Assembly (NCBI GenBank): GCA_030272585.1
Contig: BSYQ01000006.1
Location: forward strand, 5,729,001-5,793,000
DNA length: 64,000 nucleotides
Direction: 5' to 3'
From: Bryopsis sp. KO-2023
Lineage: Eukaryota > Chlorophyta > Ulvophyceae > Bryopsidales > Bryopsidaceae
Positions 10,611 to 31,101 of the stretch are shown here, piece by piece. Positions within the stretch are counted from its first letter, which is position 1. Each line of letters begins with the position of its first letter. Made by a program: the position numbers and the translations under genes. The notes beneath the pieces are model-generated. The model had not been told where the DNA came from and did no database searches. It saw nothing but the letters and a program-made list of their open reading frames with translations.

Positions 10611-10936
10611 TGTTGTTACTGGAAGAACGAGCCTTCCGCAAAAAAGTCTTACAACAAAAAGACAACCCCGAACTCCCGTTCACAGACTTTCCTTCCCGAC
10701 TCACTCAACTCTCACACTTCCTCCACTGACTCATACCTCGTACTTCTAACGTAAAACCCCTACTGCCATGGGGCCTCTCACCCGCACTGACCAGTCGATT
10801 CAACAGATTTGACATCGCTCTCAGAGTCAAATCGTGTGGTAGTACTTTCATTAGAAATGAGTGTCCGTTGTGTGAATTTGTTGATGTGACGCTCTTATGT
10901 CTGTCTTTCAGTACTTGTGTTCTACCCGGTCCAACA
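10611..10936 (-). repeat. 3' LTR of the Ty3/gypsy element
   Basis: 326 bp, TG...CA ends, identical to 18343-18668. In element orientation this is the downstream LTR. Just inside it (10937-10970) the element strand reads a moderately purine-rich stretch, a weak polypurine-tract candidate. Confidence 0.95.
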
Positions 10937-11138
10937 CGCTTCACTGCCTCAAACCTCCGAAAAAGTTCTACTCGTGGTAGAATAAACTAATATCCTCACT
11001 TCCACACCAGTGTAGCCTTCTCCTACACTGTGTTTCATCAGAAAAAAAAACATCCCTCACCGGATGTAAAAGAAATCTTCTCTCCTCCGTTTACTATGTC
11101 TTCTGGTCCTACCTATTCTCTCATCACCACCATTCTAC

Positions 11139-14021
11139 TCAGAAGCAGTGCCTGATCTGTGATTTGTGCACTTCTAGGAAAGGTTTCCTACCCCTCCTGA
11201 GTTTGCCATTGATTTCCTCAATCCTGACTCGACTGGGGGAAATCAGTTCCACTATTTTATATGGTCCCTTCCAACTTGCACTGAATTTCTGATCCTTTTT
11301 TTCAGCCCTTGCTGAATCATATAAAAGGACCTCCTCTCCCAGAAAATGATTCCAGTCAGACAATTTTTTCTGTGCATTCACCTTTTCTCTGCTTTCCTTC
11401 AATCTCTGTTGAATTCTATCCCACTCCTTGCTTGATAGTGTCCACACTTTGCATGGTGGCCATCCAGTGGTTCTATTCACCATGTTGCAGACCATCCAGT
11501 TGGCCTTCTGCAGCCAATCATCCCAATACCCTCCATGATCCAACAACAGTACTCTGATTTTAGAAATCAGAGCTCTGTTCCTCCTTTCCACCACTCCATT
11601 CGCTCTGTGGTGATAAGGGGGTGTCCTCCAAACCTGAATGTGGTTGTCTTTGTACCATGCTCTCATGTCCTTCGAATGGAAGTAGGCAGCTCCATCACAT
11701 AATAGGTTGTCTGGAGATCCATGAGTCGCTATCCACTCACCTAAACACTCTCTGACCTGTTTTCCCTTCACCTCCTTTGTCTTCCAAACCATCGAATCAC
11801 GAGAGAGGTGGTCCACCACCACTACTATATGATTGTGGCCAGACCTACCAGAGGGTAGTGGACCGATGATGTCCATGCCCACTGTTTGACCAGGGTGGGT
11901 TAGATGCCCAGCTCCCCTAAGAAGTTCTTTTTCCTTCTTAGGGGCTACCCTCTGGCAGGTCTGGCAGTACCTCTGAATTTCCTCCAGATCTCCTCTATTA
12001 GCCTTCCATCCATGTTGTGCACACAGCCATAGCAATTTTTGTGGGCTCCAGTGTCCCTCCTTGTGCAACCGTTCCAGCTGATCTCTGCTCAGCTCTTTCC
12101 CTTCCGCTATCTTGCCCAACTCCTCTCCCCTTGAGCCTCCTGTATATGCATGTCCCAACTCTGTGTTTCCTGACATGCCAGACCTTCCTGAATCACTCTC
12201 TTTAGAGTCCACTGCCTCAGCCTGCTCCAGCACCTGTTCTGTTGATCTGTTGGATCCTCCTGATTCCATGCTTGTGTTTTTACTGATATGCATCTCTTGT
12301 GGTTCAAGTGCACACACCTGCCCTTGTGTTTGTGTTGGCCTACTGTACCATCTAGACAGGAGATCAGCCCAAGGGTTAGATGTCCCTGGCAGGAATTGAA
12401 CCCTCAACCTTCCAGGGGAGGGGTAGTTCTCTGCCAACCAAGCCAAGAGACGCACCACTCTGATGTCCTCCACGACTTCTTTCGGTGCTAACTTCGTAAT
12501 CCTTTGCACTGCTGAGTTCGAATCAGTGTGCAGGGTTAGCTGACCCCCAGCCACCACCTGTGAAACCGATTTCAATGCCCATATGAGAGCTTGAAGCTCC
12601 CCCAAATAGGAGCTGACTTTTTCTCCTCCCTTATCCGCACACTTTCGACTGTTGAGGCTGACGATACACCCCTCTGAGGGGGTACCTCTGAACAGAACAT
12701 ACCCCCACCCAGAGGATGACCAGTCTGTAAACAGATTATACTCTCCAGAATCTGAATTACCCAACTTGACATTATTAGTCAGTATGGATTTCCATGCTTC
12801 TGCCACCAACTGTTGCATGAGTTTCGGATTCGATCCCTTGGGAAGCTCCAGCAGAGGTTGAATGATGTTATGGAAATTCGGGCAAACTCCCCTGCAGACA
12901 TTAAGCATGCCGACGAATTGACGGACGTCCCTGACGTCGCGCATTTCTGGCAACTGACGCACTTGGTCGTCGACGTAGCGTCGAAGGCCGTAGCTCCCCT
13001 TCGTGACCGTGTACCCCAAGTAGGTAACCTCCTTTTGTCTGACGACCGCCTTTGCCCTGTTTATCCGTAATCCCATTTCGTCGAGCCTGGTCAGAACACG
13101 TCGCAGGTTCCTGTCATGGCCTTCGACGCCTTCTCCGCCGATTATGAGGTCGTCGACGAAGTTACGACCGGGGTATCCGTGGATAGAGCTCCGGATGCGG
13201 GAGTGGAACAGCCCTGGCGAACAGTTCCATCCCTGTGGAAGGCGGAGGTAAGTGTAGTCCCCCTCTCCGGTTTCAAACGCGAAGAGGGGCTGGAGCGAAT
13301 CGCAAACGTCCACCTGGAAGAAGCCCTGCTCCAGATCCAGGACGGTGAAGTAGTCCCACTCCGGTGGGATCGACTTCAGCACATCCCGGACATGGAGCAG
13401 GGACGTCTTCCAGGCGTCGGAGTACGAGTTCAGCAAACGAAAATCCACCGTCTTACGGACCTTTCCATTCGGCTTCCTTAGGAAAAGTACGGGGGAGAAC
13501 AGAGCCCGCTCGCCGACGCCCAGGGGACGGATGACGCCTTGCCCCTGCAACGAGGTAAGCAGTTTTCGAATCTCCTTAGGCGCGACGTCGGTGGCGTAGT
13601 ACCGTATCCCCGTGTTGTGCAGCGGAATCCTGTGGAAGGGAACGCGCCATTTCACCTCCCTGTGGCAAACCCGAAGAGGAGCAGCAGTCGCCTTTGCGTC
13701 TCTGCTAAGGTCGTCACGAATCACGTTCGGAAATTCGCGTCGCCAGTATTCCACTGAGCCTGTATCCTCCGTCTCTGACTGCGTTTCCGACGTGCAGGCA
13801 GGTTGTTCCTGAGTGGTTTGCACCGTAGCAGTATGTCCGTTCCAGAGTCTTTCCCCTGTCCCTACTGCTGTGGTGTTGTCGAGAAGGTCGTCAGCCACCT
13901 CCTCCCAAATCGTCGTCAGGTGAGATAAAGGGGATGTAGTGTGTTCGCTAAAACTTCTGCCTGGTGGTTTCCCTCTGAGGGCTTCCCAGTACTTCCAGAG
14001 ATCAAGGTGCTCCTGTTCCAC
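11139..14021 (-). CDS. retrotransposon Pol: reverse transcriptase, RNase H, integrase
   Basis: About 960 residues. Reverse transcriptase: the active-site box near 13141-13161 reads FVDDLII instead of the usual Y.DD, preceded by VDFRLLNS and YLRLPQGWNCSPGLF. RNase H follows (NLFTDWSSSGWGYVLF ... LHTDSNSAVQ). Integrase has an HHCC finger (LHKEGHW ... RYCQTCQR) and the D-D-E triad in VGMDIIGPLPSG, LCDGAAYF and NGVVERRNR, then a C-terminal SH3-like tail (SASWKGPYKIVELI). The apparent start is a GTG at 14021, but the frame is open up to the transposon edge at 14114, so this is the 3' half of a Gag-Pol polyprotein cut off by the insertion and not an independent gene. Every catalytic motif is present and I see no stop or frameshift. 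Confidence 0.92.
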   Translation of the reverse strand: MEQEHLDLWKYWEALRGKPPGRSFSEHTTSPLSHLTTIWEEVADDLLDNTTAVGTGERLWNGHTATVQTTQEQPACTSETQSETEDTGSVEYWRREFPNVIRDDLSRDAKATAAPLRVCHREVKWRVPFHRIPLHNTGIRYYATDVAPKEIRKLLTSLQGQGVIRPLGVGERALFSPVLFLRKPNGKVRKTVDFRLLNSYSDAWKTSLLHVRDVLKSIPPEWDYFTVLDLEQGFFQVDVCDSLQPLFAFETGEGDYTYLRLPQGWNCSPGLFHSRIRSSIHGYPGRNFVDDLIIGGEGVEGHDRNLRRVLTRLDEMGLRINRAKAVVRQKEVTYLGYTVTKGSYGLRRYVDDQVRQLPEMRDVRDVRQFVGMLNVCRGVCPNFHNIIQPLLELPKGSNPKLMQQLVAEAWKSILTNNVKLGNSDSGEYNLFTDWSSSGWGYVLFRGTPSEGCIVSLNSRKCADKGGEKVSSYLGELQALIWALKSVSQVVAGGQLTLHTDSNSAVQRITKLAPKEVVEDIRVVRLLAWLAENYPSPGRLRVQFLPGTSNPWADLLSRWYSRPTQTQGQVCALEPQEMHISKNTSMESGGSNRSTEQVLEQAEAVDSKESDSGRSGMSGNTELGHAYTGGSRGEELGKIAEGKELSRDQLERLHKEGHWSPQKLLWLCAQHGWKANRGDLEEIQRYCQTCQRVAPKKEKELLRGAGHLTHPGQTVGMDIIGPLPSGRSGHNHIVVVVDHLSRDSMVWKTKEVKGKQVRECLGEWIATHGSPDNLLCDGAAYFHSKDMRAWYKDNHIQVWRTPPYHHRANGVVERRNRALISKIRVLLLDHGGYWDDWLQKANWMVCNMVNRTTGWPPCKVWTLSSKEWDRIQQRLKESREKVNAQKKLSDWNHFLGEEVLLYDSARAEKKDQKFSASWKGPYKIVELISPSRVRIEEINGKLRRGRKPFLEVHKSQIRHCF

Positions 14022-14105
14022 TGTCCCCCCTACCCCCCCCCTGGGTGAGCAGAGTAATTTTTCCTCTTGAAGGTGAGAGACTGAACTCTGGTTTTTCCCC
14101 AGTAT

Positions 14106-14113
14106 GTCACTGT
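14106..14113. repeat. 8-bp target-site duplication GTCACTGT, left copy
   Basis: GTCACTGT occurs here and again at 15242-15249, directly flanking the nested element. The Gag-Pol linker repeats show that only one copy belongs to the uninterrupted retrotransposon. Confidence 0.92.
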
Positions 14114-15241
14114 CATACTATGGATCCGATCACGATCAGATCGGTCTCCGATCAACCGGGAGACCGATCATGATCGTGATCGGCCGATCACCGATCTGAT
14201 CGGTCGCCGATCAGACCTGCCAGGGCCGATCATCGATCAGGATCGGCCGATCATCGATCAGATCGGTCGCCCCACCTGATCGGCAGTTTTTGATCGGCCT
14301 GATCGTGGTCGGCCGATCAAAAACTGCCGATCAGGTGCCGACGGGGTCCGACGCTTGATCGAGATCGTGATCGGGATCGTATTATCCGATCAGATCGGTA
14401 TCATGATCAATTGATTCCGATCATGATCGGTCCCATAATCAATTGATCGGTCAATTGATCGGTTTACGAAAATGCCCACAAGTCACCACCCGAAGGTGTT
14501 TCTGGAGGTGTAAGGACTCGAACCTAGGACCTCACTGACTGGAATCAAGCAAATCAACGCTTAGACCACTCTGTGCCACGATCACTAGGTCCTCCGTGTT
14601 ATTATATACCTCAGTTTGTCGGACTGACTGATCAGGTATATAATGACACGGAGCACACTCTAACCGTAGCTCAGAGTGGTCTAAGCGTTGATTTGCTTGA
14701 TTCCAGTCAGTGAGGTCCTAGGTTCAAGTCCTTACACCTCCAGAAACACCTTCGGGTGGTGACTTGTGGGCATTTTCGTAAACCGATCAATTGACCGATC
14801 AATTGATTATGGGACCGATCATGATCGGAATCTTAAATTTAATTCCGATCAATTGATCCATGGCCGATCATGGTCGGAGCTGATCGGATCAACGGCCGAT
14901 CAATCGGCGTTTCACCGATCTTGATCGACCGATCACGTGCCGACAGGTCGCGACGCTTGATCGTGATCGTGGTCGTGATCGGAGCTGCCGATCAGATCGA
15001 TAATCGGAAGCCCGATCCCGATCACGATCAGGCTTTGATCGGCCGACCACGATCATCGATCAGGTTTTAATCGGCCGATCACGATCACGATCATCGATCA
15101 TGATCGGTAAAAAAAAAAAAAAAAAAACCGATCATTTTTAGAATCATGTGGAACGAGATCGTGTCAGGTCAGATCAGTGAAACGACCTGTCCTGACATCG
15201 AAAATGGACGGCCGATCATTTCCGATCACGTCCATAGTATG
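14114..15241. mobile_element. non-autonomous DNA transposon (MITE-like) nested in the retrotransposon
   Basis: 1,128 bp with terminal inverted repeats starting CATACTATGGA at both ends, flanked by GTCACTGT duplications. An 8-bp duplication with CA-starting ends suits the hAT or P superfamilies; I favour hAT. No transposase frame is present. The outer thirds are packed with GATC-centred palindromes (CCGATCATGATCGG and variants); the centre is a long fold-back with tRNA-like arms. It sits in the Ser/Thr-rich linker between protease and reverse transcriptase and brings a stop at 15164 in the Gag frame. The host LTRs are identical, so this insertion is also young. Confidence 0.9.
14461..14784. 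repeat. central fold-back with tRNA-like Pol III boxes in both arms
   Basis: The left arm (about 14461-14612) is the near-perfect reverse complement of the right arm (about 14635-14784), with a spacer near 14613-14634. Each arm carries a tRNA-like A and B box. On the minus strand the left arm reads TGGCACAGAGTGG (14566-14578) and GGTTCGAGTCC (14514-14524). On the plus strand the right arm reads TAGCTCAGAGTGG (14667-14679) and GGTTCAAGTCC (14721-14731). The boxes point outward. The T stem and acceptor stem do not pair well, so these are tRNA-derived remnants rather than working tRNA genes. The arms agree closely, differing mainly around the A box and by A/G in the B box. Confidence 0.75.
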
Positions 15242-18200
15242 GTCACTGTTAGTGGGACTCTCAGTAGTTACAGTCTGTCCCTCATTGTGTGTTTGTTCCA
15301 CTGCCCCGACTACCCCCCCCCTGGGTGAGCAGCCCCCTTTTTCCTTTTGTGAACTCTGAACTGTACTCTGGCTCTGTCCCAATGTTTCCCTGTCTGTAGG
15401 ACTCTCAGTAGCTACAGCTTTGCTTTCTTGCAGCAGAGTGCTGTGTGCAGTCAGGCTGTTAGGTGTGAGGACACTCTGGGTGCCTTGGTTTTCCCCACAT
15501 GTCTGTCCCTCTCTCCCCCTTGGTAAGTCCCTCCATTGATCCTGCTGGGGGGTGGAGAATGTACCCTGGCTTGTCCCCAGTGTAGCACTGTTTGCAGGAC
15601 TCTCAGAAGCTACATTCTCCTCCTGTGTGTGGAATTTCGACTGCTGTACCCTTCCCTGAGTATCTGACTTGGGTAAGTGATGTACAGCCTCTGAACTGCT
15701 GGTTTGTAAGCCAAAAATCTTTCCTCCCTTCTCCCTAGCTGAACTGATGAACTGTCCAGTAGCATTATAGCTATTGGGCTGACATTCAAAGTCTGTGTTT
15801 GATGTCTGTGTTCTCCCCTCATTCTCAGAGTCTTTCCCCTCAATCCTGTCCCTGAGTGGATAGTGCGTAGCAGAACTCACATCCAGTTCTGTGAGAGAGG
15901 CTGTGCTCTGGCTCTTCCTCAGTGTTGCACTGTTTGTTGGATTCTCAGTAGCTACAGCCTCACTGTTCTGTGTTGTTAAACTCCGTAACACACACCCATC
16001 CCCTGAACTGAGATGCTGTTCTCCAGAGTCGGAACTGATGGTCGGTATATCCCTGTTTTGGGCAGAATTCGATAGTACTCTACTGTCCCCCTCTGGGCTC
16101 AACTGCTGTTCAACAGATGCAAGCTGGCCTGTTTGTGAATCCCAGTCCTGATTCGACTGCATTGTGCCCCAACTGCCCTTTGAACCACTGGTTCTGTCAA
16201 ACACTTCCAGTGACCCACAGTCATTCTTTGGTGGTGGAAAAGAAACCTTTTTACATCCTCCATCTCCCTGTTTTTCTATTCCAGAACACCCCCCCTCCTC
16301 AGATTCCACTTCCTGTGGTGGAAAAGAAACTGTTTGACATCCTCCATCTCCCTTCTTTTCAATCCCAAAACACCCCTCCTCCTCAGGTTCCACTTCCTCC
16401 TTCTCTCTGAGATCCAAACCATGGGGCAGTAAACCATCCTCCTCCTGTTCGACACATTCCTCCTCTGCTCCTCCTTCCTCTATCACCACCGGCGTTCCCT
16501 CAGCCACCCTGAAGCTAACCAAACACAGTTTTGCAGTAAGCATCCTCGCCTCCAACTGGGCGTTATACAGCGTGAGTCGAACTCTTCCGTCGGAGTTCGT
16601 CGTCACAGAGTGAAGGAGGTTGTGGGGTTGTCCTATGGCCATTAACGAAAACAGGCCAGGCCCAGTAATTCGAAAAGGAAGAACAACCGTTTTAATCGCG
16701 TAGGGTCCCAGAACCAACGACGAACCCAGGGGTAACCGAAACTCCCCATCCTTCCCCACTAAACGAATCCTGCGTCCTTTTTTCGTGAGGGGGTCTTGCA
16801 GCACTCGAACCACACCCCGCTCTAACTCTCCCGACTTCTCCCCTACCTTCATGACTGCGTGGCAAGGGATGGACGTTCCGTTCTTGCCCCAGAGGCAGTT
16901 GCGAGCGCAGTCGACGGTGAGGGAAAGGTGTGCGAGGAGGGGGACGCCCAGAATAATCTGGGGTGTGTTTTCCGAAACCAAAAATACTTCCTTCCCCTCC
17001 CACGGTCCTACTTTGACGTCGAGCGTCACCGTCCCTCGCACGCTCTCCTTGCTTCCATTGAACCCGGTCAGCGTTAGCACTCCTTTCGGAGGAGCGACTC
17101 CCCATCCGTGCCTTTGACAAACCTTCCATGGCATGATGGAGCATCCACTTCCGCTGTCGACCAACGCTTCGAAAAGGTGGTTACTCCCTCCCTGTTCTCC
17201 TTCCAGCCTGAGTTTCACCCGAAGTTGTTTTCGCACCGTATCTCCGGCGGGCGTTCCTGCTGCGACCGAATGGCACGACGACGACGGCTGCTCTTGCTGT
17301 ATTGCCTCCAGCAGCTCGCCGAAAGCATCCTCTTCCACACTCGCCACCTGCGCTCTCCTCTTCGTCCGGCACTGCGCTTCCCAGTGCCCCTTCCGCCCGC
17401 AAAACTGGCAGTACGGAATCTCTCCCGTCCGAGTAGGTGGCCTGTCCGCCACCAAAACTTTCGTCCCCACCTTAGGTTCTGCTTTGGCATCCACTTTCAC
17501 TTCTTCCTTTCCCTCCTCCTCCTTCTTTACTTCCGCGAGAACTGCTTCCCTGTATTCCGTCCTCCTCTTCATTCGATCCAAAAGCTCCCGAAGTCCGCTG
17601 AAGGTAAGTTTTTCGAACTCTGTTTCCAACACGACGCGGCTCAACACCCTCCCCGGTAACCGGGCCACGAGTAGCTTGACCGCTTTTTTCTCCTCTTCCA
17701 CCTCCGCCGCTTGTCCCGTGTTTAAGAACATCAGGAAAAAACGCTGCAAAAACTCCAACTCTGTCTCCTCCTCCGTTTGTTGCAACCGCCGAAGTCTGTC
17801 CAACGTAGCTGATCCCTCCGTCGAAACTGAAGCCGCAGGCGCCGCACTCCCGAGCTCCAGGACTTCCCTTCTCATCGCCGTCTCTGTTCTACGCCGCCGT
17901 AACCATGCAGAACCTTTGTCGAGGAACTTCAGTAGGTACCCCAGCAGAAGCGAGGAGGCGATCCCTGCTCCGACCAGGTTGGCGTTGGATCCCCGCAGGA
18001 CACCCCAGAGCTTGTGCATCCTGTCTGCGAGCTGCACAAGCTCCAGGGTGTCCCACGCAGCAGCGGGGTTCGGTGAAGGGGAGGGTAGGGCACGATGTGA
18101 GTGTCGATGTCTGATCGACCACATCAGCCTCTGCCAGAGCTCGTGTGGAGACGTTCTGGGCGTGTGAGGCGTAGAGAATGGAGGAGGTGATGGGGGATAC

Positions 18201-18343
18201 GTTGCTGGCGCCCTTCCGGCTGGTGTTGCCGGCGCCGCATTTTGATCTGATATCGTCGGTGGTCGCTGTAACAGCAGCGACATACCGGCTAGTAGAGCCA
18301 AGCCCCCAAAGGCCAGGATCCACCCTGTTCGCTCCGAAACCAT
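15164..18343 (-). CDS. retrotransposon Gag-protease, truncated by the nested transposon
   Basis: The first ATG in this frame is at 18343 and straddles the junction of LTR and primer-binding site. The frame is open further upstream into the LTR but only with a GTG. The protein starts with a hydrophobic segment (GWILAFGGLALLAGMSLLL) and has a second one near residue 90 (LVGAGIASSLLLGYLL), unusual for Gag. A CCHC zinc knuckle (CQFCGRKGHWEAQC) lies near 17368-17412 and the protease active site DSGSG near 17148-17162. A long Ser/Thr/Glu-rich linker follows with several copies of a 15-residue motif close to ESPTNSATLGKSQST. The genuine element sequence ends at 15250; the last codons to the stop at 15164 are transposon sequence. 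Protease and knuckle residues are intact. Confidence 0.9.
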   Translation of the reverse strand: MVSERTGWILAFGGLALLAGMSLLLQRPPTISDQNAAPATPAGRAPATYPPSPPPFSTPHTPRTSPHELWQRLMWSIRHRHSHRALPSPSPNPAAAWDTLELVQLADRMHKLWGVLRGSNANLVGAGIASSLLLGYLLKFLDKGSAWLRRRRTETAMRREVLELGSAAPAASVSTEGSATLDRLRRLQQTEEETELEFLQRFFLMFLNTGQAAEVEEEKKAVKLLVARLPGRVLSRVVLETEFEKLTFSGLRELLDRMKRRTEYREAVLAEVKKEEEGKEEVKVDAKAEPKVGTKVLVADRPPTRTGEIPYCQFCGRKGHWEAQCRTKRRAQVASVEEDAFGELLEAIQQEQPSSSCHSVAAGTPAGDTVRKQLRVKLRLEGEQGGSNHLFEALVDSGSGCSIMPWKVCQRHGWGVAPPKGVLTLTGFNGSKESVRGTVTLDVKVGPWEGKEVFLVSENTPQIILGVPLLAHLSLTVDCARNCLWGKNGTSIPCHAVMKVGEKSGELERGVVRVLQDPLTKKGRRIRLVGKDGEFRLPLGSSLVLGPYAIKTVVLPFRITGPGLFSLMAIGQPHNLLHSVTTNSDGRVRLTLYNAQLEARMLTAKLCLVSFRVAEGTPVVIEEGGAEEECVEQEEDGLLPHGLDLREKEEVEPEEEGCFGIEKKGDGGCQTVSFPPQEVESEEGGCSGIEKQGDGGCKKVSFPPPKNDCGSLEVFDRTSGSKGSWGTMQSNQDWDSQTGQLASVEQQLSPEGDSRVLSNSAQNRDIPTISSDSGEQHLSSGDGCVLRSLTTQNSEAVATENPTNSATLRKSQSTASLTELDVSSATHYPLRDRIEGKDSENEGRTQTSNTDFECQPNSYNATGQFISSAREKGGKIFGLQTSSSEAVHHLPKSDTQGRVQQSKFHTQEENVASESPANSATLGTSQGTFSTPQQDQWRDLPRGREGQTCGENQGTQSVLTPNSLTAHSTLLQESKAVATESPTDRETLGQSQSTVQSSQKEKGGCSPRGGVVGAVEQTHNEGQTVTTESPTNSDHTMDVIGNDRPSIFDVRTGRFTDLT
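15242..15249. repeat. 8-bp target-site duplication GTCACTGT, right copy
   Basis: Direct repeat of 14106-14113 next to the right inverted terminus of the nested element. Confidence 0.92.
18331..18342 (-). promoter_or_regulatory. primer-binding site, initiator tRNA-Met type
   Basis: Directly inside the 5' LTR the element strand reads TGGTTTCGGAGC. It matches TGGTATCAGAGC, the complement of the 3' end of plant-type initiator tRNA-Met, at 10 of 12 positions and has no spacer from the LTR. Confidence 0.7.
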
Positions 18344-18668
18344 GTTGTTACTGGAAGAACGAGCCTTCCGCAAAAAAGTCTTACAACAAAAAGACAACCC
18401 CGAACTCCCGTTCACAGACTTTCCTTCCCGACTCACTCAACTCTCACACTTCCTCCACTGACTCATACCTCGTACTTCTAACGTAAAACCCCTACTGCCA
18501 TGGGGCCTCTCACCCGCACTGACCAGTCGATTCAACAGATTTGACATCGCTCTCAGAGTCAAATCGTGTGGTAGTACTTTCATTAGAAATGAGTGTCCGT
18601 TGTGTGAATTTGTTGATGTGACGCTCTTATGTCTGTCTTTCAGTACTTGTGTTCTACCCGGTCCAACA
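18343..18668 (-). repeat. 5' LTR of the Ty3/gypsy element
   Basis: 326 bp, identical to 10611-10936, TG...CA ends. In element orientation it holds the promoter. Its last base supplies the A of the first Gag ATG. Confidence 0.95.
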
Positions 18669-19540: not shown

Positions 19541-19810
19541 TCAATCTCTTTTCGTATTAAATGCACATGATACGGACAACAAACACAAACTTTGTTGGGC
19601 GACAGAAACACGCCTGTTTCTCCTATTTCTTGAACCCTGTCGGGTTTCAACCGTCAACCTTGCTTCACACTCAACTCCACTTCCGACCTTATTGGCCTCG
19701 ACAGGATCTTGAGAACAATACTTTGAGGAGGGGTAAAACGCGTCTGTGACGCTCACCAGACAGAGAAAAAACAATGCGACGGCAAGGTAGTGTCGACAAG
19801 AATGGGTCAA
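19541..19810 (-). CDS. possible small secreted protein
   Basis: Frame of 89 residues from the ATG at 19810. The N terminus is a textbook signal peptide (MTHSCRHYLAVALFFLCL, cleavage likely after VTDA), followed by a Cys-containing, later Arg-rich stretch. A donor-like GT after EANK (about 19688) means the true gene may splice elsewhere, so the 3' half is doubtful. It lies head to head with the collagen-like gene, the two starts 77 bp apart. No family is recognised. Confidence 0.35.
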   Translation of the reverse strand: MTHSCRHYLAVALFFLCLVSVTDAFYPSSKYCSQDPVEANKVGSGVECEARLTVETRQGSRNRRNRRVSVAQQSLCLLSVSCAFNTKRD

Positions 19811-19887: not shown

Positions 19888-22800
19888 ATGGACGGACGGG
19901 TGGTGTCCCGTTGGGTGGTATTTGTGCTGTTATGGCCGCTTGTGAGAGGAATAGTCCCAGGACAGGGATCCTCAACGGAAATGAGCCCAATAAATAATCC
20001 AGGTGATACTGCTCGGCCCAGAAGACCAGGAAAGTCTCGAATGCCAGAAAGTTAACAGTGTTAACTTGACACCAGGACATCAAGACTCAGACTCACTAAA
20101 GTCAGACAACTTTTGAAACGCAGGGAGTCCAGGAAACCAACGCAGTCCTGGAAACGCAGGAAACACAGGAAACTCGGGTAGCCCAGGAAATCAAGGCAGT
20201 CCTGGAAACGCAGGCAGCCCAGGAAACTCAGGGAGTCCGGGAAATTCGGGTAGCCCAGGAAATCAAGGCAGTCCTGGAAACTCAGGAGGGAACTCAGGAA
20301 ATTCGGGTAGCCCGGGAAATCAAGGCAGTCCTGGAAACTCAGGAGGGAACCCAGGAAACTCAGGGAGCCCGGGAAATCAAGGCAGTCCTGGAAACTCAGG
20401 AGGGAACCCAGGAAACTCAGGGAGCCCGGGAAATCAAGGCAGTCCTGGAAACTCAGGAGGGAACCCAGGAAACTCGGGTAGCCCAGGAAATCAAGGCAGT
20501 CCTGGAAACTCAGGAGGGAACCCAGGAAACTCAGGGAGCCCGGGAAATCAAGGCAGTCCTGGAAACTCAGGAGGGAACCCAGGAAATTCGGGTAGCCCAG
20601 GAAATCAAGGCAGTCCTGGAAACTCAGGAGGGAACCCAGGAAACTCGGGTAGCCCAGGAAATCAAGGCAGTCCTGGAAACTCAGGAGGGAACTCAGGAAA
20701 TTCGGGTAGCCCGGGAAATCAAGGCAGTCCTGGAAACTCAGGAGGGAACCCAAGAAATTCGGGTAGCCCAGGAAATCAAGGCAGTCCTGGAAACTCAGGA
20801 GGGAACTCAGGAAATTCGGGTAGCCCGGGAAATCAAGGCAGTCCTGGAAACTCAGGAGGGAACCCAGGAAACTCAGGGAGCCCGGGAAATCAAGGCAGTC
20901 CTGGAAACTCAGGAGGGAACCCAGGAAATTCGGGTAGCCCAGGAAATCAAGGCAGCCCAGGAAACTCAGGGAGTCCGGGAAATTCAGGTAGCCCAGGAAA
21001 TCAAGGCAGTCCTGGAAACTCAGGAGGGAACTCAGGAAATTCGGGTAGCCCAGGAAATCAAGGCAGTCCTGGAAACTCAGGAGGGAACCCAGGAAACTCA
21101 GGGAGCCCGGGAAATCAAGGCAGTCCTGGAAACTCAGGAGGGAACCCAGGAAATTCGGGTAGCCCAGGAAATCAAGGCAGTCCTGGAAACTCAGGAGGGA
21201 ACCCAGGAAACTCGGGTAGCCCAGGAAATCAAGGCAGTCCTGGAAACTCAGGAGGGAACTCAGGAAATTCGGGTAGCCCGGGAAATCAAGGCAGTCCTGG
21301 AAACTCAGGAGGGAACCCAAGAAATTCGGGTAGCCCAGGAAATCAAGGCAGTCCTGGAAACTCAGGAGGGAACTCAGGAAATTCGGGTAGCCCGGGAAAT
21401 CAAGGCAGTCCTGGAAACTCAGGAGGGAACCCAGGAAACTCAGGGAGCCCGGGAAATCAAGGCAGTCCTGGAAACTCAGGAGGGAACCCAGGAAACTCAG
21501 GGAGCCCAGGAAATCAAGGCAGTCCTGGAAACTCAGGAGGGAACCCAGGAAACTCAGGGAGCCCGGGAAATCAAGGCAGTCCTGGAAACTCAGGAGGGAA
21601 CCCAGGAAATTCGGGTAGCCCAGGAAATCAAGGCAGTCCTGGAAACTCAGGAGGGAACTCAGGAAATTCGGGTAGCCCGGGAAATCAAGGCAGTCCTGGA
21701 AACTCAGGAGGGAACCCAGGAAATCAAGGCAGTCCTGGAAACTCAGGAGGGAACCCAGGAAACTCGGGTAGTCCAGGAAATCAAGGCAGTCCTGGAAACT
21801 CAGGAGGGAACCCAGGAAACTCAGGGAGCCCGGGAAATCAAGGCAGTCCTGGAAACTCAGGAGGGAACCCAGGAAATTCGGGTAGCCCAGGAAATCAAGG
21901 CAGTCCTGGAAACTCAGGAGGGAACTCAGGAAATTCGGGTAGCCCGGGAAATCAAGGCAGTCCTGGAAACTCAGGAGGGAACCCAGGAAACTCAGGGAGC
22001 CCGGGAAATCAAGGCAGTCCTGGAAACTCAGGAGGGAACCCAGGAAATTCGGGTAGCCCAGGAAATCAAGGCAGCCCAGGAAACTCAGGGAGTCCGGGAA
22101 ATTCAGGTAGCCCAGGAAATCAAGGCAGTCCTGGAAACTCAGGAGGGAACTCAGGAAATTCGGGTAGCCCAGGAAATCAAGGCAGTCCTGGAAACTCAGG
22201 AGGGAACCCAGGAAACTCAGGAGGGAACCCAGGAAACTCAGGGAGCCCGGGAAATCAAGGCAGTCCTGGAAACTCAGGAGGGAACCCAGGAAATTCGGGT
22301 AGCCCAGGAAATCAAGGCAGCCCAGGAAACTCAGGGAGTCCGGGAAATTCAGGTAGCCCAGGAAATCAAGGCAGTCCTGGAAACTCAGGAGGGAACTCAG
22401 GAAATTCGGGTAGCCCAGGAAATCAAGGCAGTCCTGGAAACTCAGGAGGGAACCCAGGAAACTCAGGAGGGAACCCAGGAAACTCAGGGAGCCCGGGAAA
22501 TCAAGGCAGTCCTGGAAACTCAGGAGGGAACCCAGGAAATTCGGGTAGCCCAGGAAATCAAGGCAGCCCAGGAAACTCAGGGAGTCCGGGAAATTCAGGT
22601 AGCCCAGGAAATCAAGGCAGTCCTGGAAACTCAGGAGGGAACTCAGGAAATTCAGGTAGCCCAGGAAATCAAGGCAGTCCTGGAAACCCAGGGAGTCCGG
22701 GAAACCCTGGCAGGCCTGGAAAACCGATCAGAGCAATACCACGGAGGCTTATACGGGCAGTAGCAAGAAGCGAATCAAAACGAAGAGATACGCTGTTTCG

Positions 22801-23915
22801 GCGAAGAGGATTCAAAACTGTGCGCTATCAGAATGTGAGTTATGCCAGTAGAAATCAGTTTTGGTGTTGGCACCAGGATCCCCATTCGTGTTTTTGCCAA
22901 AAGTTCAGTGTTTATTTTCACACAGGTGGTTTGTAACTCCCCCGCATTCTGTTTCTATTGCTCGATGGCGAACTTGAAAGGAGGATTCTTCTCTACTGAC
23001 GATGGATCGCAAGGGGAAACAATCAATGAGGTGAAAGGAGTGCACGACCAGCAATTCTCAGAAAACCGGAGCGCTCAATAACATTGCTCAGCACTTTAGT
23101 GCCACCATGCCATCACAAATCCCAGTCCAGGATGCAGTGTCAATTTCACAGCATCACCTCTTCGTTTTCCCGCCTCCATTGGCTGCTCACTGTGCTTCTG
23201 GTTTTTATTTTCTTTCATTGCTTCAATTGCGCCGGCGCCACGCTGTGTTGTCATAACTTGGCTATTTTGTACAGGTGGGGAAAAAATGCTTGCTGTCTCT
23301 GTCAGACTCATATGTCGGGGATCTCCTGTCTCGCCCAGAGTATGGCCTTCTGATGGCCATCAACCCGCAAAATGAACGAAACCCGTTCTTTTCGAGCCTT
23401 GCCAAACTCGCTGTTAAGAAAAAAGAGTCAATCGCCAACCTCGCGTGCAGCAATGAGGTGAGTTGGGTTGGAAAACTCCGACAAAAACTTAATTTATTCT
23501 GTGTCAGTGAGGTGATTGTTACAAGGCTCCATATGTTAAGTCGCTGGTCGCTTTGCAAGCGACAATTGTGAGTTATATTGGTGAATGTGAATAGGGAGCA
23601 AAGGATGCCCGCGATGCAAGCTACTGCGTAGCGTGCCAGAGAGGCTCCGAGGGGTGCCTTCAAGAGGTTCAGAAACTGTGCGAGGAGGGATATGTGCACA
23701 AGAATGGATACCAGCTGAAGGGGGTCTACAACTACCACGCCAACTTCTTCTGGAAGAGACTTCACGAAAACGCGCCGACTATATGTCAATCCCTGCAGCT
23801 CCTATCGACGTCGGAAGGAAACAATGATTCGTTCAAAAGGATGTCAAAATCCGCCATCGCGGATGTTATAACTGCACAGTGTGAAGAAGATAGGAGCTAT
23901 ATTTCTTGCTATTGA
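19888..23915 (+). CDS. secreted collagen-like repeat protein with Cys-rich C-terminal domain
   Basis: Five exons keep frame throughout: 19888-20002, 20124-22834, 22926-23030, 23275-23457, 23595-23915, giving 1,144 residues. The start at 19888 puts a signal peptide (RWVVFVLLWPLVRG) at the N terminus; an upstream in-frame ATG at 19774 would bury it. Exon 2 encodes about 860 residues of a 19-residue unit, GNQGSPGNSGGNPGNSGSP, that is (Gly-X-Y)3-Gly-(Gly-X-Y)3, then an Arg-rich segment (PRRLIRAVARSESKRRD). The C-terminal part (about 200 residues, 12 Cys: FCFYCS, YCVACQRGSEGC) matches no family I know. It is probably an extracellular matrix, wall, scale or mucilage protein that can form interrupted triple helices. 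The plus frame is preferred because splicing, signal peptide and C-terminal domain all join in register. Confidence 0.8.
20124..22715 (+). repeat. 57-bp coding minisatellite, about 45 copies
   Basis: Tandem 57-bp units (19 codons) with few variants: CCA or TCA after GGGAAC, and TCAGGGAGC or TCGGGTAGC. Some units are partial (missing 6 or 12 codons), always by whole codons, so the frame holds. Larger blocks recur, for example the partial-unit block near 20953, 22073, 22318 and 22563, which suggests expansion by unequal exchange. Because 57 is a multiple of three, the antisense is also open for 419 codons. Confidence 0.95.
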
Positions 23916-26215: not shown

Positions 26216-26246
26216 ACCCAAGGGTTTTTTTTCATATAACTTTCAT

Positions 26247-26590
26247 GTTGGTGCCTTGTGGGAAGAAACGAAAACGACTGGAACTGCCTCAAAACTCGAC
26301 CCAGCGCCTGTTGCACGCGAGAGATGCAATATTTTTCCTCGATCCCTTGGATCCCTTTGATGTTGCCGCCTTGTTGGAAGAAACCAAAAACGATTGGAAA
26401 CGCCTCAAAACTCGACCCAGCGCCTGTTGCACGCGAGAGATGCAATATTTTTCTTGAATCCCTTGGATCCCTTTGATGTTGCCGCCTTGTTGTTGGAAGA
26501 AACCAAAAACGATTGGAAACGCCTGAAAACTCGACCAAGCGCCTGTTGCACGCGAGAGATGCAATATATTTTTTCACAGACCAAAACTCG
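26247..26590 (+). repeat. three tandem copies of a 116-bp unit
   Basis: Units begin near 26247, 26362 and 26478. They share GAAGAAACCAAAAACGATTG, CTCGACCCAGCGCCTGTTGC and ACGCGAGAGATGCAATAT. The first copy is more diverged. Overlapping frames on both strands are shadows of the repeat. Confidence 0.85.
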
Positions 26591-29399: not shown

Positions 29400-31101
29400 T
29401 TAGAGTTGGCCGTAGACGGAGGTCCAGTTGGTGAGGATGTTGTTGTTGAAAGGATCGGCAAGATGGTCCAAGAGGTTCTGGTATGGGCCCTTTCCGGTGA
29501 GGATGGCCTGGGAGCCGAATCCGAACATGGCCATCATAGCCAATCGCCCGTTCTTGATTTCCCTGGTCTTCATGACCTTCATGGACTCCTCAGTCTTACC
29601 CAAGTTGAACATGTTGAAGAAAGCACCACCTATGCAACCATGCAAAAAGTTGGTAAGACAAGCCCCAAGCATCTTTATAATCTCCCCCCTCCCCAAACAG
29701 AATAGAAAAAAGAAAAGGTTCCTGCATGCAGGTTTGGATAAAAAAGACTCCCTTGATTTCACGTTGTAGGTTTTCCACTGTGTGCAGACTCTGATGTTCG
29801 CCTGTATCACAGTGGGAAAAGGCCCACCGCACCATAAGTTCCAGGTTGTTGCTGGATTCCTGCTTTCATTTTTATCCCAGCCGCTGAATTATTCCTCCTC
29901 CCCCCCCCCAAACCCCTCCCCTTTTCTTTCCAAAAAAGGGAATAATCTTTTCTTTCATTTCCGTATAGCCCCAATTGCAGTCCCCATAACCCCTGAAATG
30001 AACAGCCAATATCACTGCTGATCGACTTTATTAGTGCTCCCCCCCCTAAACCAACTAGAATCTAGATTGTGTTGGGCCCGGAACACCATCAATTGGATCT
30101 GGGCATTAATCAGGATTGAGAAGAGGGCCCACCTGGGTAGGAAGGATCACCAGATCCACCAAGGACACCCTCCATTCCGAGGAAGTATTGCTTGCCCATG
30201 GAACCAGGCTTTCTGTAGTCCTGGAGTCTCCTCAACTCGGCGAACTGCATGGCAACCACCTCCACGAAGAACAAAGTGTATGGGTCGCACCAGTACACGT
30301 CAGAGGAACCCGCTGGAGGGATCACTCCGTTCCTGTACCAGACGATTCCAGTGGACTCGGGAATGACGCCGAGGGAAGAGAGGATCTCAGGGGTGATGCA
30401 CCCGGCCGCTCCGAGCATAGCGAAACGTCCGTGGATCACCTCGGAGTACCTCAACCAGCTGGGGTTGATGAAACCAACATCGCCATTGCCGGGCTCCAAA
30501 AGACCGAAGGGATCGAAGCCGTAGTCGCCGGGGAGGGTACCGTCCAGATAGGTCAGGGAGTTCTCGTCAGCGAAGAACAAGGTGTCCTTGGAGCGGTCGA
30601 CCTGCGACGAACGCCGCGACAGATACTCGTCGGAAAAAAAATATGGACTCAAATGCTGTATCGCGCACGTTCCGAAGTTGACAAAAGTATCCATCTTGTT
30701 TTTTCTTCAGATAGTTCTGTAGACTTCAGAGCTGTCAATCGACGAGCGTCGATTTCTTCGACCCACCGTTGCGACCTTGCCACCCTCCTCGGCTTTCACC
30801 CTCAAAGAAGCGCCCAAACCATGGACGGTTGGGTTCACCTTTGGGGTGGTGACGAACTTAGGCTTGGCAGCCTGCGAACGACGCAACCCACAGATCTTTA
30901 TACACCCGCCCAGAATCACCATAACCAGCGAAACAAAAGCCACTCGATAACAATTCCCAAGTATTCAACCCCCTAAAAGTAGGAGCTCCTCGAAAACCAT
31001 GTCGTGCAGTAGCGCCAAGAATCGCTGCAAGATTCGGACAGGCATTTTTCGGATACCTGAACGCCGGCAACGACAGGGCTGGAAAGGAGAGCAGCCGCCA
31101 T
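29400..31101 (-). CDS. LHCA3: photosystem I chlorophyll a/b antenna protein LHCA3
   Basis: Four exons keep frame: 31057-31101, 30767-30871, 30133-30601, 29400-29629, giving 282 residues. Exon 1 and part of exon 2 form a plastid transit peptide ([13 protein letters not shown] ...) with no upstream signal peptide. The mature part shows the three LHC helices: first [14 protein letters not shown] with its Glu-Arg chlorophyll ligands, third [14 protein letters not shown]. Between them lie LHCA3 signatures: [38 protein letters not shown] and [17 protein letters not shown] near the C terminus. The product binds chlorophyll a/b in the thylakoid and feeds energy to photosystem I. Length is as expected for LHCA3 (about 270-280). 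The start is 436 bp from that of the divergent HEMK2 gene. Confidence 0.96.

Follow-up and report, generated by a model that had tools for sequence, protein, structure and literature searches.

The window analysed here is the whole 64,000-nucleotide stretch of DNA, and in it the Bryopsis gene at 19888-23915 on the plus strand is, judged from its sequence, real and unusual. Its five exons join in frame and, upon translation, give 1145 codons including the stop, that is, 1144 residues. The predicted protein runs from a hydrophobic N-terminus through a long Gly-X-Y region to a C-terminal domain with 12 cysteines, hereafter the 12-Cys domain (Table 1). The introns measure 121, 91, 244 and 137 nt, have GT-AG borders in four of four cases and lie in phases 1, 0, 0 and 0. 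A sequence-only reading of this DNA had joined the exons in frame at 20002/20124, 22834/22926, 23030/23275 and 23457/23595, and these junctions proved right, as three relatives in the same genome have a matching exon layout. The same reading had called a signal peptide, in agreement with the hydrophobic, signal-like N-terminus that we find on the basis of hydrophobicity, with a peak in exon 1 (WVVFVLLWPLV) that begins at residue 9. The start codon at 19888 is the choice of that reading and is to be taken as provisional, because three in-frame ATGs lie further upstream (19774, 19810 and 19831), with an in-frame stop at 19747.

Table 1. Positions of the exons, the repeat and the neighbouring features in the window
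Feature	Position	Strand	Description
Exon 1	19888..20002	+	start codon, hydrophobic signal-peptide-like N-terminus, phase 1 donor
Exon 2	20124..22834	+	2711 nt; collagen-like repeat, then basic linker (22718-22834)
Gly-X-Y region	20124..22717	+	57-nt unit; first Gly codon split 20002/20124
Repeat unit polymer			peptide formula (GNSGSPGNQGSPGNSGGNP)n
Exon 3	22926..23030	+	12-Cys domain begins (VVCNSPAFCFYC...)
Exon 4	23275..23457	+	12-Cys domain, middle part
Exon 5	23595..23915	+	last part of 12-Cys domain, then stop codon; the domain is not followed by a tail, unlike in the three relatives
LTR retrotransposon	10611-18642	-	LTR segments without a difference over 300 nt; repeat gene lies about 1.2 kb away, the element being upstream of it
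LTR element, pol ORF	11139-14021	-	
LTR element, gag/protease ORF	15164-18436	-	
Inverted repeat	14413-14832		199 nt, 94% complementary, between pol and gag; GATCGG-type short repeats around
Tandem array	26240-26572		116-nt unit, 2.8 copies; open frames overlap on both strands
Light-harvesting protein	30110-30694	-	PDB chain 6igz_3 (Lhca-d)
Adjoining ORF	29400-29810	-	end of 6igz_3 (residues 205-281)

The LTR retrotransposon upstream of the gene is probably a very recent insertion. On the other side lies a light-harvesting gene, which matches 6igz_3 with 358 bits vs 255 for the next chain, and supports the green alga that the sequence-only reading had named. The adjoining ORF aligns with the end of that chain (160 bits), which here ranks fourth; above it stand three very long LHCI chains from 9vfj, each matched in three or four stretches. 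We take 6igz to be the photosystem I of Bryopsis corticulans. Contamination was considered as an origin of the repeat gene and is thought unlikely, given that the gene has introns and shares its 6.7-Mb contig with a green-type LHC gene.

Composition and periodicity of the repeat

Residues 39-903 comprise 275 triplets and 40 extra Gly, and the 19-residue unit reads GNS GSP GNQ GSP GNS G GN(P/S), with 37 units of the exact type. Gly codons fill 312 of the 315 Gly slots (GGA 176, GGG 59, GGC 46, GGT 31). Of the 275 triplets, 274 have Asn or Ser at X (Asn 178, Ser 96, Arg 1), and position Y is Pro (128), Ser (99), Gln (45), Ala (2) or Thr (1), Pro thus being present at 128 of the 275 Y positions and at none of the 275 X positions. 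This Gly/Ser/Asn/Pro composition is almost devoid of charge, and a composition count of the Gly-X-Y region bears out the earlier remark that it has neither Lys nor aromatic residues. The collagen-like nature of the repeat is likewise upheld, since the Pfam Collagen family (PF01391) scores 48.3 bits over the first 143 residues vs a cut-off of 27.2; the family was matched here in the genome search too.

The interruption by an extra Gly had been described as strictly periodic, and we find it regular but not strict: only 32 of the 39 intervals between extra Gly span six triplets, the others spanning twelve (four cases), two (two cases) or four (one case). Eighteen triplets precede the first extra Gly, and one of their Gly slots holds an Arg, leaving at most 15 uninterrupted. 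The repeat therefore has no long uninterrupted Gly-X-Y run, the usual run being six triplets. At the DNA level, TRF reports a 57-nt unit with 46.1 or 40.3 copies in two overlapping rows. Across the genome searched (91.1 Mb, 28 contigs), the DNA pattern for GSPGNQGSP was matched 43 times, in 43 of 43 cases at the repeat locus, and its reversed control gave no match; a looser first pattern was non-discriminating, its reversed control being matched equally often.

The 12-Cys domain, its gene family and the origin of the repeat

When the C-terminal 241 residues were searched against the genome, nine exon-level matches were obtained, four from the gene itself and five from three genes on contig C5 (L018, L019 and L020). 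As modelled, these relatives have five exons with intron phases 1, 0, 0 and 0; intron 1 of L020 is modelled with a GC donor, and a GT donor lies 15 nt upstream, both in phase 1 (by eye). The 12-Cys domains of L018, L019 and L020 are 38, 36 and 33% identical to that of the repeat gene, and 46 columns, including all 12 Cys, are invariant in the four members. The N-termini are hydrophobic in all four gene models, and the comparison shows, at sequence level, a shared layout composed of a hydrophobic N-terminus, a variable linker exon and the 12-Cys domain. The relatives carry long tails beyond the domain, which are Tyr/Pro-rich in L018 and L019 and His/Gly/Ser-rich in L020 (by eye). Tyr-Gly-Pro motifs in the tails of L018 and L019 are suggestive of cross-linking wall proteins, and we take these Tyr/Pro/Gly-rich tails to resemble cell-wall proteins.

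The C-terminal domain, rightly called Cys-rich in the sequence-only reading, matches no described family in the collections searched: no significant match was found in Pfam, NCBIfam, the PDB, viral contigs or prokaryote genomes. At E 0.1, Pfam returned no family for the C-terminal 241 residues, and so none of the known collagen C-terminal domains (COLFI, NC1); at E 10, it returned none for the 202-residue domain of the repeat gene and two chance-level families for the other members. The best NCBIfam match had an E value of 0.14, a profile search of the PDB gave three chance-level matches (best E 0.12) and a single-sequence search of the PDB reached E 0.77 at best. No relative of the domain was found among 154 pattern stretches in viral contigs or 25 in prokaryote genomes. 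With the L019 domain as a second query, the same four genes of the genome were recovered and the next match had an E value of 1.03; nor was the domain found elsewhere in the genome, the other collagen-like loci included. Relative to the collections searched, among which its own was the one eukaryote genome, the 12-Cys domain appears to be new. A single-sequence AlphaFold model of exon 5 was all-alpha and of low confidence (pLDDT 63 for the best of five models, 35-45 for the others), and Foldseek listed 27 matches to it, the best with an E value of 0.77 and none below 0.001, a result that is uninformative because the model is weak.

The four genes differ in the length of exon 2: it measures 194, 101 and 128 nt in L018, L019 and L020, where it encodes a linker without Gly-X-Y, vs 2711 nt in the repeat gene. 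Because the relatives' exon is so short (101-194 nt) and lacks Gly-X-Y, the collagen-like region appears to be a short linker exon that has recently expanded in tandem. Inside the array, stretches of 455 and 443 nt recur exactly, at offsets of 567 and 246, which shows recent growth of the array through segmental duplication. It also follows from these exact repeats that the periodicity need not be selected as such, and the regular spacing of the extra Gly may be a mere by-product of tandem duplication. At sequence level, the linker exon of this gene holds a collagen-like array, amplified in tandem and broken by an extra Gly roughly once per six triplets. The family of four genes suggests a way for such a region to emerge within an otherwise ordinary linker, separately from the collagen-like loci found elsewhere in the genome.

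A proposed hinged trimer and its alternatives

Bryopsis is a giant coenocyte. The protoplasm extruded from B. hypnoides is reported to regroup in seawater and to regrow (PMC3038852), which makes the proteins of the Bryopsis wall and wound matrix of interest. Our current working model, to which we give about an even chance, is that this nuclear gene of a siphonous green alga encodes a secreted wall or mucilage protein whose repeat forms a hinged triple-helical trimer. The chain would enter the ER, the 12-Cys domain would fold with disulfides and gather the chains, presumably as trimers, and the prolines, all in Y, would be hydroxylated and perhaps glycosylated. The Gly-X-Y segments would then pair into triple-helical rods of about 18 residues, bent at each extra Gly, and a homotrimer would stay in register because the one-residue shift falls at the same point in each chain. 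This would yield a long, flexible, nearly uncharged stalk bearing a 12-Cys head, set in the wall or mucilage; the scale or mucilage role named by the sequence-only reading is to be taken as a candidate. In favour of the model are the exon architecture and invariant Cys shared by the four genes, their hydrophobic N-termini, the Pfam Collagen match, the Gly kept in nearly all slots with four Gly codons in use, the Y-only Pro, the third-position bias of the copies by cells, the other collagen-like loci of the genome and the wall-protein-like tails of L018 and L019. The Y-only prolines fit the position used by collagen prolyl hydroxylases, and the genome contains ten exon-level matches over cut-off to the 2OG-Fe(II) oxygenase domain, two of them with an internal stop, a domain that also occurs outside prolyl hydroxylases.

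The helices may be regularly hinged, as the sequence-only reading had it, but a triple helix cannot be assumed, because a break strongly destabilises it: with a GQG break, (POG)10 is reported to melt at 32 instead of 64 C, and its helix to bend (PMC9898670). The same source describes triple helices bent by an extra residue in C1q and by a GQG break in MBL, and bacterial collagen-like proteins are reported to form the triple helix without hydroxyproline, some interruptions being possible (PMC8968730). Forty breaks make a stiff collagen rod unlikely, and the short segments, so often broken, nearly uncharged and lacking Pro in X, may be unstable. AlphaFold, given 190 repeat residues (ten repeats) as a single chain, returned no structure (pLDDT 35, pTM 0.13), which is uninformative for a trimer because a monomer was modelled.

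The array is open in two further frames, one per strand, and an open frame alone therefore proves nothing; this, together with the youth and repetitiveness of the array, would suit an array that is non-coding and satellite-like, or else a gene in another frame or on the other strand, in place of the protein gene as modelled. We compared 57-nt copies, of which 44 were anchored and 38 used, six having been dropped for less than 80% identity to the consensus. The types of substitution do not clearly favour any one frame: the ratio of synonymous to non-synonymous types is 5:8 in the Gly-X-Y frame, a weak signal from copies that are not independent. The two remaining forward frames give 2:11 and 1:12, and the three reverse frames give 3:10, 6:7 and 3:10, the one with 6:7 having a stop in its consensus. 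The 84 minor-allele cells of the 38 copies are, however, biased to third positions of the Gly-X-Y frame (66, vs 15 at position 1 and three at position 2). The strongest argument for the frame is that the array continues, without a shift, into the conserved 12-Cys domain, and exons 3-5 are 33-38% identical in the three relatives, with all Cys kept and the same intron phases. We regard a non-coding or otherwise framed array as very improbable.

Within a secreted protein, the repeat might alternatively lack order and serve as a hydrated, perhaps glycosylated spacer, mucilage-like or extensible, between wall-anchoring parts, its Gly-X-Y pattern being the relic of an amplified Gly-Asn-Ser/Pro seed. 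The nearly uncharged make-up and the short linkers in the corresponding exon of the relatives are in keeping with such a spacer, recent segmental duplications can render any unit periodic, and the triple helix is destabilised by a break (PMC9898670); we nevertheless consider it rather unlikely, as the retention of Gly in nearly all of its slots despite third-position changes suggests a constraint on Gly spacing, albeit among copies that are not independent. Unlikely as well is a single-chain polyglycine-II/polyproline-II bundle, layered as in antifreeze proteins of the snow-flea type, in which the extra Gly would aid a turn about every 19 residues. Gly at each third residue, small polar residues in X and Y and a regular break would fit such helix-turn units, and two IMG/VR viral contigs (L056 and L058) encode NPGN-rich proteins with Gly at every third residue (by eye); a single extra residue, however, gives the chain little room to reverse, Pro in almost half of the Y positions takes away backbone NH donors, and AlphaFold found no fold for the single chain, although at a pLDDT of 35 this is uninformative. 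The antifreeze proteins of Collembola are small, with Gly at every third residue, a known fold and no 12-Cys domain. They carry X-P-G motifs, about one-sixth of which are likely hydroxylated by mass (PMC10235112); X-P-G motifs occur in the Bryopsis repeat too.

We slightly prefer the hinged trimer, because the copies differ at third positions yet preserve the spacing of Gly. More tentatively, and as less likely than not, we propose that the gene encodes a natural collagen-like polymer with a frame-shifting break inside the repeat unit, in which about 40 short rods, mostly of 18 residues, are set on single-Gly hinges, and which arose by linker-exon expansion in a lineage-specific family of 12-Cys wall proteins of siphonous algae. 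Hinges at nearly set intervals would offer a natural test of how far the triple helix tolerates breaks of register, and the hinged chain could serve as a template for flexible collagen materials.

Collagen-like proteins in this genome and elsewhere

Pfam Collagen gave at least 91 matches in the genome (150 of 216 candidates scored); often a single gene accounts for several of them, and some fall in simple Gly repeats; the C4 locus (GSVGST repeats) and L051 were left out of the collagen count on the basis of composition. Long runs of uninterrupted triplets occur at no fewer than five other loci, on C13 (241), C7 (210-211), C3 (170), C11 (45) and C8 (45), the C8 locus being nearly identical to that of C11. 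These loci share long Gly-X-Y with the repeat gene, whereas theirs is uninterrupted and has many charged residues. Four of the five have a small Cys module, which lies within the Gly-X-Y frame or shortly before it; it is similar in C13, C7 and C11, with nine invariant columns when these three are aligned. Read from open frames, the module may be joined to Gly-X-Y in C7, C11 and C8. What looks like a membrane helix closes the C13 frame (by eye). Such a module is noted for the collagen-like loci catalogued as L031, L033, L036, L037, L024, L043 and L044.

The stalks of MBL and C1q have one break per chain. They resemble the Bryopsis repeat in having a local break of the triplets, in C1q by an extra residue (PMC9898670), whereas the repeat has 40. 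Four collagen genes have been reported in Ulva compressa and 28 in U. mutabilis (PMC9266709), and Ulva collagen genes are noted also in PMC10762512; a 2021 review treats collagens as metazoan fibrillar components and describes brown algae as lacking them (PMC8307928). Given the other loci found here and the Ulva reports, collagen as such is no novelty among algae, and collagen-like genes are already known in the class Ulvophyceae. The Bryopsis repeat gene is like PF01391 proteins, including the Ulva collagens (known to us by report, not by sequence), in its Gly at each third residue, Pro in Y, secreted-type N-terminus and separate folded domain, and differs from them by the phase-shifting Gly in most units; it further differs from PF01391 proteins in having no Pro in X, almost no charge and a C-terminal domain without a Pfam match. 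The suggestion of a possibly undescribed family hence stands for the C-terminal domain, which is unmatched, and does not extend to the collagen aspect, already reported in Ulva (PMC9266709). What is new is the frame-shifting Gly inside the repeat unit, the collagen-like matrix protein being of a known kind. Among the matches listed in the open-licence literature, none concerned Bryopsis collagen genes or a periodic collagen with inserted Gly.

The first 172 residues had no match in phage records. The repeat pattern was matched in 106 stretches of viral contigs, five loci of which encode Gly-rich proteins, and their resemblance to the repeat likely reflects convergent composition. The NPGN-rich proteins of L056 and L058 are long, and we presume that they are possibly polyglycine-II adhesins.
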